This document shows, in pieces, positions 24,459 through 30,962 of a stretch of 41,917 nucleotides of DNA. The DNA is from Phycisphaerales bacterium. Its GTDB lineage: Bacteria; Planctomycetota; Phycisphaerae; Tepidisphaerales; Tepidisphaeraceae. Location: positions 1 through 41,917 of the forward strand of contig JANYKD010000518.1 in NCBI GenBank assembly GCA_025361735.1, in the 5' to 3' direction. The first letter of the stretch is position 1. Each line of letters begins with the position of its first letter. Under the pieces are notes generated by a model, which saw nothing but the letters and a program-made list of their open reading frames with translations, ran no database searches and was not told the DNA's origin. The position numbers were made by a program, and so were the translations under genes.

Positions 24459-25820
24459 CTACTGCCTCCAGAACCGCCAACCGCGTTTGCGCAACATATC
24501 GAGCAAGACGGCTCCGAGAATCACCAGACCGAGCACGACCTTCTGCCTATAGCTCTCGACCTTCGTCAGGTTCATGCCGTTCTGGATCACCGCGATGATG
24601 AAGGCCCCGATCAGCGTTCCGAAGATCTTGCCCGAGCCGCCGGAAAGGCTGGTGCCGCCAACCACGACCGCCGCGATCACGTACAGTTCGTAGCTCAGCC
24701 CATAGGTCGGCGAACTGCTCTTGAGTTGCGAAGCCACCACCACGCCACCCACGCCGGCCATGAGCCCGCTCAGCAGATAGACCATCAACAACACCCGGCC
24801 GACGCGCACGCCCGAGAGGCGCGCCGCCTCGACGTTGCCTCCGACCGCGTACACGTATCGCCCGAACGCGGTATTGGACATGGCCACATGGGCGACGACA
24901 TAAACCCCGGCCATCAACATCACCGCATTGGGAATCGACAACAGACCCGTGCCCCGGCCGAGCCAGACGAACGATGGCGGAATCTCGTAAATCGACTGCC
25001 CGGCCGACAGAATGTACGCCACCCCACTGGCCACCTGCATCATCGCCAGTGTGGCGATGAACGGAGGTATCCGAAACCAGGTGATGACCATCCCCGAGAA
25101 CAGCCCTACCATCCCGGATACCGCAATGCCCCCAAGCGAGCATAGCATCAGGTTCATCGTTCCAGCCCGCGTGGCTCCACCGAAATCGCGGATCAGCAGT
25201 CCCGTTACCACGGCCGACAGCGCTACCAGACTGCCCACGGACAGATCGATACCGCCCGTGATGATGACCATCGTCATGCCCACTGCAATCAGCGCAATCA
25301 CCACGATCTGATCGGCGATGTTGAGCAGATTCTTTGGTTGCAGAAACGTGGGCCAACGGTACGGCTCGGGGCTCACGAGTTTCGTCCGAGCCAGCCCCGG
25401 AAACCGCGGCATCATGTTCTCCAGCCAGCCCGCGCAGCTTTCTGTCGCGGCGATGGCGCCCACAGTCTCAGCCTTACCGCTGCCCTCCTGTAACGCGGCC
25501 AGGACGATGGCCGGATCACCTTCGATTCGAACCAGCCGTTCATATCCCTTCATTTTCAGCAACGCCATCGCTCGTCGGGCAAAGGCCTGGTCGTCCTCAC
25601 TCAATCCAGCGACAATCAGGATGGTCGCACTGCTATCCGCAACTCCCATGACCCTCGCCGCCACAACCTCGCCTGCTTCAGCCCCGACCGGCTTCTGATA
25701 CTGCAACGTCGCCCACGAATAGTACACGCACAGCAACAGCAACACGCCGGCCATGCCATAGTTGGCCGCCAGTTGCCCGACCGCGCTTCTCTTTCCCATG
25801 ATTCCCATCATTCTCCTCAT
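24459..25820 (-). CDS. Ribose-type sugar ABC transporter permease with N-terminal insert
   Basis: A 453-residue member of the RbsC/BPD_transp_2 family, with the signatures [33 protein letters not shown] and [20 protein letters not shown]. Most family members have about 320-350 residues. Here, about 115 residues (roughly 40-155) separate the first helix from the rest; they contain [20 protein letters not shown] and look like a small soluble alpha/beta domain facing the periplasm. The gene is six bases downstream of the ATPase gene. Several ATGs cluster at the start; that at 25820 is used. The 281 bases between its end and the response-regulator start hold no recognisable gene. Confidence 0.88.
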
Positions 25821-25826
25821 GCTCGT

Positions 25827-27323
25827 TCATGCCATGGCCAGCGCCAGCACCTGTTCCTGCGTGGCGTTTCCCACATCGGTGATCTCGCCTGTGATTCGTC
25901 CCTCGTGCATCACCAGGATCCGGTCGCTCATGCCCAGCACCTCGGGCAACTCTGAGGAAATCATGATGATCGCCTTGCCTTGCGCCGCCAGGGCGTTGAT
26001 GAGCACGTAAATGTCGTATTTGGTCCCCACATCGATTCCGCGCGTTGGCTCGTCGAAGATGACCACCTCGGCGTTGGCCTCCAGCCACTTGGCCAGCACC
26101 ACCTTCTGCTGGTTGCCGCCCGAGAGATTCTGGGCCGGCGTGTCCGCGTGCGGGATCTTGATCCGCAACTCCTGAACATATCGGCCGAACCGCGCTCGCT
26201 CCTGACTCTCCGACAGGAATCCAAACCGCAGGAACTTGCGGAGATTCGGCAGCCCGAAGTTCTCCCGCACCGATGCCCCAAGGATTAATCCCTGGCCCTT
26301 GCGGTCTTCGGTCAGCAGGCAGATGCCAGCGTGAATTGCGTCGCAAGGATTGCTAATATGCAGTTCTTTGCCGTCCAACGTAACGCGACCGCGATCCGCC
26401 CGGTCGGCCCCGAAGATCAGCCGCGCCGTCTCCGTCCGCCCTGCGCCCACCAGCCCGGTCAACCCGAGCACCTCGCCGCGTCGCACCTCGAACGACACGT
26501 CGCGGACAGCCTTACCGCGAGAGAGCCCCTGGACGACCAGACGCGGCTCGCCGGGCATTGTCGTGCGCTTGGGAAACTCATTCTCCAGCTTTCGCCCCAC
26601 CATCATCTCGATCAGCCGCTCGCGCGTGAGTTGGCCGATCGGCTGTGTGCCGACGTACTGCCCGTCGCGCATCACCGTGACGCGGTCGGCGATACGGAAG
26701 ATCTCGTCCATGCGATGGCTCACATACAGAATCCCCACGCCGCGTGCCTTGAGCCCGGCGATGATCGCAAATAGCTTCTCGACCTCGTTGCTGGTCAGCG
26801 CCGCCGTCGGCTCGTCCATGACCACAATCCGCGCCTCCAGGGCAATCGCCTTGGCAATCTCCACCACCTGCTGCTGGGCCACCGTCAGATCGGAGCACAG
26901 CGCCTCCGGATCCATCGCCACGTTCATGCGCGCGAACAACACCTCGGCCATGTCCCACTCGCGCCGGTGACGCACGAATGGCCCCAGCCGTTCCTCACGC
27001 CCCAGGAAGATGTTCTCCCGGGCCGTCAGCCCCGGCACCAGGTTGAACTCCTGGTAGATCACCGCGATGCCCGCCCGTTCCGCATCGCGCGGGCCGTGGA
27101 TGGTCACCGGCGTTCCGCAAATGCGAATCTCCCCGCGATCCGGCCGATGCGCCCCGGAGAGCACCTTGATCAGCGTGCTCTTGCCGGCCCCGTTCTCTCC
27201 CATCAGGGCGTGCACCTCGCCGGCACGCACATCCAGCCGGGCGTTCTGAAGCGCGCGTACACCGGGAAAGGTCTTGTCGATCCCTTCCATCTCCAGCAGG
27301 TTATCGAGCGACGTTGCGGTCAC
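25827..27323 (-). CDS. Ribose-type sugar ABC transporter ATP-binding protein (tandem NBD)
   Basis: A 498-residue protein with two nucleotide-binding halves, as in RbsA/MglA. The first half has Walker [10 protein letters not shown], and [10 protein letters not shown] as Walker B. The second has the degenerate P-loop GLVGAGRTE typical of the family, LSGGNQQKV and [11 protein letters not shown]. It drives import of a sugar or related small molecule through the adjacent permease. The substrate cannot be read from the ATPase. It is followed by the permease with a six-base gap and preceded by the binding-protein gene across a palindromic repeat. Confidence 0.94.
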
Positions 27324-27362
27324 TGCACTACTCCATCGCGGCTCAATCCCGGTGGCATCGCC

Positions 27363-27430
27363 TTTCGTAGCACAGCCGTCTCGGCTGTGTCCGAGCGCTT
27401 TGACACAGGCGAGACGCCCGTGCTACGAAA
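27363..27430. repeat. Palindromic REP-type element (GTAGCAC family)
   Basis: The outer arms TTTCGTAGCAC (27363-27373) and GTGCTACGAAA (27420-27430) are perfectly complementary. Inside are two hairpins: ACAGCCGTCTCGGCTGT (27372-27388) and an imperfect CACAGGCG/CGCCCGTG pair. It fills most of the gap between the binding-protein and ATPase genes. Related units occur at 35049-35121. Confidence 0.75.
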
Positions 27431-27446
27431 CTTACGCCGCGATCGA

Positions 27447-28427
27447 CTATTTCAAGTCCGGATCCTTTTGCGCATCCGCCTGCTTGTAGATGCTTGTCGG
27501 GTTAAGCAACTGCGCCACGGGCTTCTCGCCGGCCATGTACCTGGCAATCGCGTCGATGGTTCTCGCGCCGATCTGCTTGGGATACTGCATGACCGTCGCG
27601 TGGAGCTTCCCGTCCTTGATGGCCTGCCTCGCTTCCGGCTGGCCATCGAAGCCGATGACCTTCACCTTGCCCGATCGGCCGGCCTTTTCGATCGCGGCAA
27701 TTGCGCCCAGCGCCGTCGGATCATTGATCGCGAAAATCGCGTCCAGATCCTGGTTGGACTGGAGAATGTCCTGGGCCACCGCGAACGACTTGTCCCGAGC
27801 CCCTTGTCCCGGCAGTTTGGCCACAACCTTGATCCCGGGAGCCTTGGCGATTTCCCCATTAAAACCCTTGGTCCGGAGCATGCAGGATTCGACCTCGGGA
27901 TGATCGATCATCGCGATGTTCCCCTTGCCGCCGAGCATGGCGACCATCTCCCGGCCGGCAACCCGGCCGCCTTCAAGGTTGTCCGTCGCCACGTGCGTGA
28001 CGATCTTCACGCCGTCGGCCATGCAGGCGATGTCGGCGGTGAAGACGGGCACGCCGGCCTTGTTGGCTTCGATGATCGCCGTCCCGATCGATTTGGAGTC
28101 GCACGGCGCCAGCACAATGGCGCTGACCTTGCGCACGAGAAAATCCTTCACCTGGTCCTTCTGTTTGGCCGGGTCCAGTTCTCCGGAGGTGACGATGACT
28201 TCGTACCCGTGCTTGGCGCCCTCGGCCTGCATCGCGTCGCCCATATCCTTAAAGTAAGGATTGGTCATGGTCAGCAGCGACACGCCGATCACCGGCTTGC
28301 TGGCCGGCGGCGTCGAGGGCTTGCCCTTGTCGCAGCCCGCGAGGAGTACGGCAATACCCGCCATCGCGACAATACCCATGCACATCGAACGCGTCACACG
28401 CTGCCAAGCCGCTTTCTTGCTCATCAT
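27447..28427 (-). CDS. Ribose-type sugar-binding lipoprotein of ABC transporter
   Basis: A 326-residue protein of the periplasmic-binding-protein-4/RbsB family. The signal peptide ends in lipobox LAGC (Cys about 32), so it is a lipoprotein. Family motifs include GVSLLTMTNPYFKDMGDAMQ, ILQSNQDLDAIFAINDPTALG and KVIGFDGQPEARQAIKDG. It captures a sugar for the RbsC/RbsA-like permease and ATPase encoded downstream on the same strand. GGAGACCG precedes adjacent ATG codons, and either could start. No sugar kinase or isomerase is linked, so the substrate remains open. Confidence 0.92.
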   Translation of the reverse strand: MMSKKAAWQRVTRSMCMGIVAMAGIAVLLAGCDKGKPSTPPASKPVIGVSLLTMTNPYFKDMGDAMQAEGAKHGYEVIVTSGELDPAKQKDQVKDFLVRKVSAIVLAPCDSKSIGTAIIEANKAGVPVFTADIACMADGVKIVTHVATDNLEGGRVAGREMVAMLGGKGNIAMIDHPEVESCMLRTKGFNGEIAKAPGIKVVAKLPGQGARDKSFAVAQDILQSNQDLDAIFAINDPTALGAIAAIEKAGRSGKVKVIGFDGQPEARQAIKDGKLHATVMQYPKQIGARTIDAIARYMAGEKPVAQLLNPTSIYKQADAQKDPDLK

Positions 28428-28604: not shown

Positions 28605-28994
28605 CTGGTAACCGACTTCACCGAATGCCCCTGCAGTGGCAAGACCCTCGCCCGCATCGTGCAGCCCGCGGTCATGGCCATCCTGGCCGAGCAGTCGCGA
28701 CATGGCTATGACATCGTCCAGCAACTGACCGGGCTCACCATGTTTCGCGGCCACGCCCCGGACGCGACCGGCGTCTATCGCCTGCTCAAGACCATGCAGC
28801 GGGACGAACTGGTCGACTCATCCTGGGAAACTGCCGACGGCGGGCCGGCCAAGCGACGCTATACCCTCACGCCGCATGGCAGGGATTGCCTTGACTGCTG
28901 GATCGGGACGCTTACGCAGTATCAGGAGTCGATCGCGGATCTGCTTTCTCGGCTGAAGCGTGCGTCGGGCGGCAAACGTAAACGGGCAAAGTAG
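28605..28994 (+). CDS. PadR-family transcriptional regulator, probable CTG start
   Basis: The winged-helix core is clear: VMAILAEQSRHGYDIVQQLT, then VYRLLKTMQRDELVDSSWE and PAKRRYTLTPHGRDCL. A GTG at 28659 would begin only at the first helix. The frame stays open upstream and encodes TECPCSGKTLARIVQP, an N-terminal extension I recall from some PadR proteins. The only codon well placed after GAGGAG (28594-28599) is CTG at 28605, giving 129 residues. It lies between the divergent sugar transporter and the aquaporin-CobW gene 21 bases downstream, and likely controls the latter. Confidence 0.8.
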   Translation: MVTDFTECPCSGKTLARIVQPAVMAILAEQSRHGYDIVQQLTGLTMFRGHAPDATGVYRLLKTMQRDELVDSSWETADGGPAKRRYTLTPHGRDCLDCWIGTLTQYQESIADLLSRLKRASGGKRKRAK

Positions 28995-29015: not shown

Positions 29016-30962
29016 ATGAACCAGAACAAGACTCTATTCCGTGAATGCACGGCCGAGTTACTCGGCACTTTTCTCCTCGTGTTTTTTGGTACCGGTGCGG
29101 TTTTTGTGGCCGCTCTAACCGGCGCGTTGCAGGGCCTGCTCCAAGTCGCCATCGTCTGGGGCGTGGTGATCGCGCTGGCGATCTATGCGACCGCCGCCAT
29201 CAGCGGAACGCACATCAATCCGGCCGTGACCATCGCCGCGCTAATCTGGCGACGGTTCCCTGTGCGCAAGGTGCTCCCCTACATCGTGTCGCAGGTGGCC
29301 GGGGCGTTCCTCGCCTCCGTCGTGCTCTTCGCTCTGTTCTGTGGCGTGCTGGCGGCCTATGAGAAAGACAAGAGCATCGTCCGGGGACAGCCGGGCAGTG
29401 AACTCAGCGCCATGGTCTTCGGCGAGTATTTCCCGAACCCTGGCGTCTTCGGAACCACCCCAGAGGCGTTCGCCAAGGTCAGCCACATTCAGGCGATGGC
29501 GGCCGAGGCTACCGGCACAGCCATCCTGGTGTTCTTCATCTTCGCCCTCACCGATTCCCGAAATCAGAGCCGGCCCGATGGCACGCTCTTCGCCCTGTTC
29601 ATCGGCCTGACCATCACCATCCTGATCGCGGTCATCGCTCCGATCACACAGGCGGGCTTCAACCCTGCTCGCGATTTCGGCCCGCGTCTATTCGCCTGTT
29701 TCGCCGGCTGGGGATCTGTGGCGATTCCCGGCCCGCGCGGCGGGTTCTTCACGGTGTTCATTCTCTCCCCGATCGTGGGTGGCACCGTCGGCGGTGGCAT
29801 CTACGACCTGCTCATACGTCCTGGACACGCGATGGCTGCGATTCAAAAGGAGTGCTGTATGCACCAGTCCCGTTACATCATGATCGGTGGTTTCCTGGGT
29901 GCGGGAAAGACCACGGCAATCGTCCGCCTCGCCGAATATCTGACCACACAAGGGAAACGTGTGGGCCTGATCACCAACGACCAGAGCGTCGGCCTGGTCG
30001 ACACCGCCCGCGTGCGCGCGGCCGGGTTTGCAGTTGAAGAAATCACCGGCGGGTGTTTCTGCTGCCGGTTTGACTCGCTCGTGACGGCTTCTGAACAACT
30101 GACGCGGGACACGGCTCCCGATGTCATCATTGCCGAACCGGTTGGCAGTTGCACTGATCTGAAAGCCACTGTCAGCTATCCGATGCGGCAACTGCACGGC
30201 CGCGAATATGAAGTGGCCCCGCTGTCCGTTCTGGTGGATCCGTTTCGTTGCCTGCAGGTGCTGGGTCTGGGGACGGAGCCGGCGTTTACGGACAATGTCA
30301 TGTACGTCTACCGGAAGCAACTCGAAGAGGCCGAGGTCATCGCGATAAACAAGATCGACTTGCTGGACGAGATGACCCGCCAGACGTTGCGAGCCGAACT
30401 GCGCAGTCGGTATCCGCATGCCGAGGTATTCGAAGTCTCCTGCAAGACCGGCCTGGGCCTGTCACACTGGTTTGACCGCATGCTGGCCGGAAACTTGGGG
30501 CATCGTCCCTCGATGGAGGTCGACTACGACCAATACGCCGACGGCGAGGCCCGGCTCGGCTGGCTCAATGTCACCGCCGATCTAACGTCGACGAGCGACT
30601 TCGATGGCAATCTCCTTTTGACGGAACTGGCCGGCCGATTGCAGGAGCGCATGGCAACGCTCGGCGTCGAGATCGCCCATCTCAAGATGACGCTGGCCCC
30701 GGCGCAGGGGCTGGGACTGGCGGCCATCAGCCTGACTCGTACGGACATGGCGCCGCAGGTGACTCATGGGCTCAAAGGCCCCGTTGGGCGCGGGCGACTG
30801 ACGATCAACCTGCGCGCTGAGACCGATCCGGAAACCCTCAAGAGCAGCACTCTGGCGACACTGCCCTCGCTGGCGCCGACCCGCTTCGCGGTCCAGGAAG
30901 TCCACGCGTTCCGGCCGGGCCGCCCCAATCCCACGCACCGCCTGTCGCTTGCGGTGGTATGA
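29016..30962 (+). CDS. Aquaglyceroporin (MIP) joined in frame to a CobW-type GTPase
   Basis: One 648-codon frame encodes two complete proteins. Residues 1-281 are a MIP channel with six helices and both pore motifs, HINPAVT and FNPARDFGPRL; Asp after the second NPAR marks the glycerol-facilitator type. Residues about 282-648 are a CobW/G3E GTPase: P-loop GGFLGAGKTT, the metal-binding GGCFCCR motif, EPVGSC and NKIDLLD. An AAGGAG six bases before ATG 29859 (codon 282) suggests the GTPase was or is also translated separately. Either this is a true fusion or two genes lacking an intervening stop. G3E GTPases deliver metal or cofactors; a link to glycerol or water transport is not known to me. Confidence 0.85.
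   Translation: MNQNKTLFRECTAELLGTFLLVFFGTGAVFVAALTGALQGLLQVAIVWGVVIALAIYATAAISGTHINPAVTIAALIWRRFPVRKVLPYIVSQVAGAFLASVVLFALFCGVLAAYEKDKSIVRGQPGSELSAMVFGEYFPNPGVFGTTPEAFAKVSHIQAMAAEATGTAILVFFIFALTDSRNQSRPDGTLFALFIGLTITILIAVIAPITQAGFNPARDFGPRLFACFAGWGSVAIPGPRGGFFTVFILSPIVGGTVGGGIYDLLIRPGHAMAAIQKECCMHQSRYIMIGGFLGAGKTTAIVRLAEYLTTQGKRVGLITNDQSVGLVDTARVRAAGFAVEEITGGCFCCRFDSLVTASEQLTRDTAPDVIIAEPVGSCTDLKATVSYPMRQLHGREYEVAPLSVLVDPFRCLQVLGLGTEPAFTDNVMYVYRKQLEEAEVIAINKIDLLDEMTRQTLRAELRSRYPHAEVFEVSCKTGLGLSHWFDRMLAGNLGHRPSMEVDYDQYADGEARLGWLNVTADLTSTSDFDGNLLLTELAGRLQERMATLGVEIAHLKMTLAPAQGLGLAAISLTRTDMAPQVTHGLKGPVGRGRLTINLRAETDPETLKSSTLATLPSLAPTRFAVQEVHAFRPGRPNPTHRLSLAVV
29847..29861 (+). promoter_or_regulatory. 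Internal ribosome binding site and start codon for the CobW part
   Basis: AAGGAG (29847-29852) is followed after six bases by ATG (29859-29861), in frame with both halves of the fused reading frame. The site sits exactly at the domain boundary. It could yield a free 367-residue GTPase in addition to the fusion. Confidence 0.55.

Follow-up and report, generated by a model that had tools for sequence, protein, structure and literature searches.

A stretch of 41,917 nucleotides of DNA from a Phycisphaerales bacterium (all of it referred to here as the window) carries a gene in which an aquaglyceroporin is fused in frame to a CobW-type G3E GTPase, and the same fusion recurs, probably with a second protein product made from an internal start, in other bacteria. 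The fused frame with its ribosome-binding site at the junction is beyond chance, because that site ranks among the strongest 3% and 11 other genomes are fused at the same point. The gene (positions 29016..30962, forward strand) begins with ATG, runs as a single open frame of 648 codons without internal stops, and is present in one copy in the genome. Its identity as an in-frame fusion, proposed in an earlier note made from the sequence, is borne out by Pfam matches to the MIP family (PF00230, residues 4-263, 29025..29804, E = 5.6e-49) and to cobW (PF02492, residues 288-472, E = 2.2e-23). Both halves are full length, again as the earlier note had it: the channel has two NPA motifs, and the GTPase has its P-loop, CFCC and NKID motifs. 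The segment that links the final helix of the channel to the GTPase (residues 268-281, 29817..29858), delimited by the structure model and the alignment, is modeled with a pLDDT of <50. The seam reads ...CGATTCAAAAGGAGTGCTGTATGCACCAG... and, as first noted, lacks a stop and carries a Shine-Dalgarno sequence AAGGAG (29847..29852), followed after a 6-nt spacer by an ATG (Met282, 29859..29861). This ATG lies 843 nt, or 281 codons, past the first one and is thus in frame; it occupies the position, 9 codons ahead of GGFLG, at which free GTPases begin.

A gene for a PadR-family transcriptional regulator (111 aa, 28659..28994, forward strand; PF03551, E = 1.6e-15) ends ∼21 bp upstream of the fusion gene. 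The farther neighbors, a sugar-type ABC transporter and an aspartokinase-like gene, are divergent and convergent, respectively, so that the unit consists of PadR and the fusion gene. The divergent transporter (24459-28427) is of the ribose type, with a binding protein, an ATPase, and a permease that has a long N-terminal extension, its Pfam domain beginning at residue 164. The order PadR-(channel)-(GTPase) is conserved in many relatives, and PadR proteins 39 to 50% identical to that of the window are encoded upstream of the channel or the GTPase in other loci. One locus (L036:5984-7984, genome G026) has the order PadR, OsmC-like gene, GTPase without a channel; a channel remnant suspected there was rejected, as the gap is filled by the OsmC-like gene.

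The channel half scores 183.7 bits against TIGR00861, over the cut-off, and its closest solved structure is the glycerol channel GlpF (1fx8, E = 2e-55), which Foldseek also retrieved with the channel half of the structure model (E = 9e-13). It shares with GlpF and the other MIP aquaglyceroporins the full MIP domain and both NPA motifs (N68-P69-A70, 29217-29225; N216-P217-A218, 29661-29669; forward strand, located by sequence and alignment), and its identity to GlpF is ∼42 to 44% over the structural alignment. It differs from GlpF in having a fused partner and in the aromatic/arginine selectivity filter, which in the window channel (29016-29849) is W-I-A-R rather than W-G-F-R. A W-I-(A/V/T)-R filter is found in all 39 channels paired with a GTPase, none of which has W-G-F-R, a filter seen in 18 of the 60 other channels tallied. 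Many of the unfused paired channels (11 of 27: L041, L112, L116, L117, L120, L154, L195, L198, L200, L201, and L204) terminate in Cys-rich tails such as CDC, CCC, or ECC. No such tails were found in the 18 W-G-F-R channels. The window junction reads KECCM, with the linker Cys-Cys immediately before Met282.

The GTPase half (367 aa, 29859..30962, forward strand) shares with the COG0523/CobW proteins (YjiA, CobW, and ZigA; PMC2770081) the P-loop GGFLGAGKTT (29886-29915), an NKxD motif (NKID, 30348-30359), a fold match to YjiA, and a metal motif of the CXCC type as defined for COG0523 in PMC2770081. The latter is CFCC (C347-F348-C349-C350, 30054-30065) and is invariant in nine aligned fused proteins. 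It differs from these proteins in having a channel as its partner, in lacking a match to Pfam CobW_C, in carrying a C-terminal signature of its own (PGRPxPxxR), and in falling below the NCBIfam equivalog cut-offs for CobW (40.4 versus 332.1 bits) and ZigA (46.8 versus 600 bits), so that it is a COG0523 protein of an unassigned subfamily. In an AlphaFold2 model built from the nine fused proteins (mean pLDDT, 74), the GTPase half is confident (pLDDT mostly >80) and includes a strand-helix C-terminal domain at residues 515-632; confidence in the channel half is moderate to low, given how shallow an alignment of nine proteins is. Foldseek matched the GTPase half of the model to YjiA (4ixn, E = 3.2e-9) and HypB (2hf8, E = 2e-8). 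Channel-free GTPases of the same subfamily sit in a conserved cluster in Planctomycetota (L070:1793-10000, L035:1-9039, and L033:1-9752) that encodes a GcvH-like protein, the GTPase, a protein of ∼120 aa, a 4Fe-4S protein, a radical SAM enzyme, a DUF116-polyprenyl synthetase fusion, two squalene-cyclase/prenyltransferase-like proteins, and a class-V aminotransferase. The radical SAM gene of that cluster has only weak matches in the genome of the window.

The search covered about 1,640 genomes, sampled from the class and phylum of the window organism, from the order and the phylum to which a deltaproteobacterium of the termite gut belongs, from Bacteroidota, and from named records, plus 80 named loci. 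Strong matches were obtained in 37 of 397 genomes of the class and 91 of 392 of the phylum, many of them covering one half only. The search as a whole yielded 39 distinct adjacent channel-GTPase pairs, 12 fused in frame and 27 encoded by separate genes, a nonrandom sample from which no rate of fusion follows. The fused genes belong to the class of the window organism (the window, G291, G809, and G139), to a single order of Deltaproteobacteria (G756, G771, G768, G772, G748, G763, and G762), and, in the case of G1189, to the same phylum as G748 outside that order. Unfused pairs are present in Planctomycetota, Armatimonadota, Bacteroidota, and Deltaproteobacteria. The domain order is identical in all fused genes, and the linkers vary in length and sequence. 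The fused gene of G809 (L187) is open through the P-loop and is broken later at a run of N; it was counted as fused and its ribosome-binding site was left unscored. Several candidates did not survive direct inspection: L183 (G788), which the search had listed as one long open frame spanning both halves, has stops between them and was not counted; a supposed partial fusion at L181 (G766) consists of an internally deleted channel and a GTPase encoded separately; and at L034 (G015), where the match begins at query residue 228, the upstream gene encodes a GcvH-like protein and no channel. A suspected channel-ArsM fusion at L189 (G297) was likewise dismissed: a channel of the same clade is cut short there by a stop after the second NPA region, and an arsM-like gene follows immediately. 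Additionally, a BioB-like radical SAM gene is found between the channel and the GTPase or right after them at L065:8634-9728 (G264) and L115:6945-7958 (Parabacteroides sp. PF5-9).

A stop codon deleted by sequencing, assembly, or binning would produce the same open frame, and the genome of the window, with 571 contigs and 6% contamination, is fragmented enough to invite such doubt, its seam being known from one assembly. Against this stand the 11 other genomes, from several groups, in which the fusion lies at the same point and the frames on both sides are intact, as well as the lack of any frameshift on either side of the window seam, and we regard an artifact as barely credible; sequencing error as the source of the fusion is rejected by these 11 further cases. 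The search among relatives suggested in the earlier note thus found its object, and the case it had set against itself, a sequencing error in a locus that relatives always encode as two genes, fails as stated, though 27 of the 39 pairs are indeed separate.

In all 11 scorable fused genes, an internal start is found 8 to 13 codons before GGFLG, matching the starts of free GTPases. The predicted duplex energy with the 16S rRNA tail averages -8.4 kcal/mol at these junction sites, compared to -2.5 kcal/mol elsewhere (p = 9e-8), the comparison set being 326 other in-frame ATG and GTG codons of the same fused genes. The junction site is among the strongest 5% of in-frame ATG and GTG codons in 10 of the 11 genes; in the window it reaches -8.2 kcal/mol (the strongest 3%), whereas the upstream start at 29016 has only -2.4 kcal/mol. 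In the unfused genes of Bacteroidota the ribosome-binding sites are weak. Weak sites are expected in that phylum, so this contrast between fused and unfused genes should not be over-read. The strength of the junction sites favors continued production of the free GTPase, short of proof. An obligate single protein of 648 aa, with the internal site as a relic, would agree with the continuous frame and with the domain order being the same everywhere. It is rendered quite improbable by the exceptional strength of the junction sites, by their retention where synonymous sites are near saturation, and by the weakness of the upstream start in the window.

Phylogenetic analysis indicates that the same two partners have been fused more than once. 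On a maximum-likelihood phylogeny of 80 GTPases, the fused state must change 7 times, with at least 4 of the changes forced by well-supported branches, and in the channel tree there are 6 changes, at least 5 of them forced. Placing all fused GTPases in one clade is 387 log-likelihood units worse, and a single origin of all fusions is rejected by the AU test (p = 3.8e-88). The window GTPase is nested within 28 GTPases that lack an adjacent channel, and its sister is found in G686 (support, 100/100). The latter GTPase (L210:181-2254), the most similar to that of the window (60%), is encoded directly behind a CDF cation-efflux gene. The fused genes of G291, G809, and G139, from two families of the class of the window organism, form a clade in both trees. 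Those of G291 and G139 share 66% amino acid identity and 34% identity at 4-fold synonymous sites, with the open seam and internal start persisting between them, which means that, barring two separate origins within the clade, this fusion is not a recent one. That the same partners have been joined repeatedly and independently argues strongly, on genomic grounds, that they function together.

These observations lead us to consider it rather likely, on the evidence of the genomes, that the gene is a functional two-domain gene yielding two proteins, a channel-tethered GTPase and a free one. Of the two readings in the earlier note, this one, a fusion protein plus a free GTPase, fits better than a very recent loss of a stop codon, which sits poorly with the 34% 4-fold identity of the G291 and G139 genes. 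A possible but rather doubtful alternative is that fusion is nearly neutral: in a tight, translationally coupled operon, loss or a small shift of the channel's stop would be tolerated, since the GTPase would still be supplied from the internal start, and the fused protein would be a functionless by-product. Several features agree with it. Unfused neighbors overlap or almost touch the ribosome-binding site (e.g., TAAGG), the internal start is retained in nearly all fused genes, and linkers differ in length and sequence. Fused and unfused genes are also intermixed in the deltaproteobacterial order of G748, which counts against the two-product reading since it also fits near-neutral gain and loss of a stop codon. 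Near neutrality is harder to reconcile with the three-gene clade, which spans two families and is still fused despite near-saturated synonymous sites, its linkers not having regained a stop, and with the repeated, independent fusion of the same partners, which suggests a benefit from tethering. Also counted against a two-product gene is the location of most members of the window GTPase clade in a different gene cluster, and where a fusion is young, the junction ribosome-binding site could be partly a relic of two genes.

If two products are indeed made, translation from 29016 would give a membrane channel bearing the GTPase on its C terminus, which in MIPs is cytoplasmic, and independent initiation at 29859 would give the free GTPase; with so weak an upstream site (-2.4 versus -8.2 kcal/mol), the free form is probably the more abundant of the two. 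MIPs are tetramers, so that one channel could bear up to four GTPase heads, which would put a metallochaperone at the cytoplasmic opening of the pore. The solute passed by the channel is probably a metal or metalloid species, such as a trihydroxy species resembling As(OH)3 or an organic derivative, that the Cys-X-Cys-Cys GTPase would bind, hand on, or sense. Expression would be controlled by PadR in the window and by ArsR-type regulators at other loci.

The genomic context suggests that the role of the channel-GTPase gene is probably in the handling of a metal or metalloid. Channels of the same clade adjoin arsM (arsenite-methyltransferase-like) genes in several genomes, and several pairs are adjoined by ArsR-family genes, whose products, where inspected, have Cys-Cys near their C termini. 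Further pointers are the Cys-rich tails of many unfused channels, the CDF cation-efflux gene ahead of the sister GTPase gene in G686, and the ars-like gene cluster that the genome of the window has on another contig. A firm assignment to arsenic is opposed by the PadR neighbor, by the location of the window gene outside any ars operon, among PadR, a sugar-type ABC transporter, and an aspartokinase-like gene, and by an ACR3-like exporter already present in the genome. The latter is part of an arsC-arsM-acr3-like cluster on another contig (G000:C378, L222:5210-8047), in which arsM is above the curated cut-off and arsC and acr3 were named from sequence; given this cluster, an arsenic role for the fusion gene is not required. 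A lesser, though real, possibility is that the fusion is genuine and the solute is no metalloid, as in uptake of a small polyol or urea next to a metal chaperone that serves another enzyme. GlpF as the closest solved relative, the sister GTPase behind a cation exporter, the presence of PadR and not ArsR in the window, and the description of COG0523 members as zinc- and cobalamin-linked metal chaperones (PMC2770081) all point that way. The filter points to a metalloid instead, W-I-A-R being common to the channels adjacent to arsM (4 of 5, with W-I-G-R in the fifth), unlike the W-G-F-R of GlpF, as do the ArsR-type genes that flank several pairs. More tentative still is the idea that recurrent tethered and free G3E GTPases, by turning over GTP where the W-I-A-R channel opens to the cytoplasm, capture or gate a metalloid or metal complex on its way through the membrane; if true, a passive channel would here be coupled to a trap that consumes energy.

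Fusion of a channel to an enzyme is as such already known. The nearest precedent is AqpS-ArsC of Salinispora tropica (Wu et al. 2010, as described in PMC6205960), in which, according to that description, an aquaglyceroporin-like channel likewise shares one polypeptide with a cytoplasmic partner; that partner is arsenate reductase, whereas in the window it is a G3E GTPase behind a seam at which a ribosome-binding site and a start are conserved. The presence of MIPs in ars operons is known (PMC4435449); the window gene, in contrast to these AqpS-type channels, lies outside such an operon, and only some of its relatives adjoin arsM. The archaeal type I-B CRISPR gene for Cas11b (PMC11899642) offers a parallel in that a shorter C-terminal protein is made from an internal start within one frame; in the window, the short form is predicted from sequence and would be a whole domain that elsewhere is a separate gene. 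A limited literature search, covering few subscription journals, found no paper on a MIP-COG0523 fusion, and the words aquaporin and fusion are absent from the text of the COG0523 survey (PMC2770081), in agreement with the impression in the first reading that no such fusion was known, although AqpS-ArsC, of the same general kind, has been published.

The conserved internal start would make this gene a clean example of one gene giving rise to tethered and free forms of a protein. To our knowledge, few clients have been identified for COG0523 proteins, and the same holds for cytoplasmic acceptors of passive channels. Through the fusion, an unassigned COG0523 subfamily acquires a physical partner, in the form of an aquaglyceroporin whose filter is distinct, together with a class of solutes that can be tested, and a tethered channel-chaperone would tie uptake directly to metal or metalloid handling.
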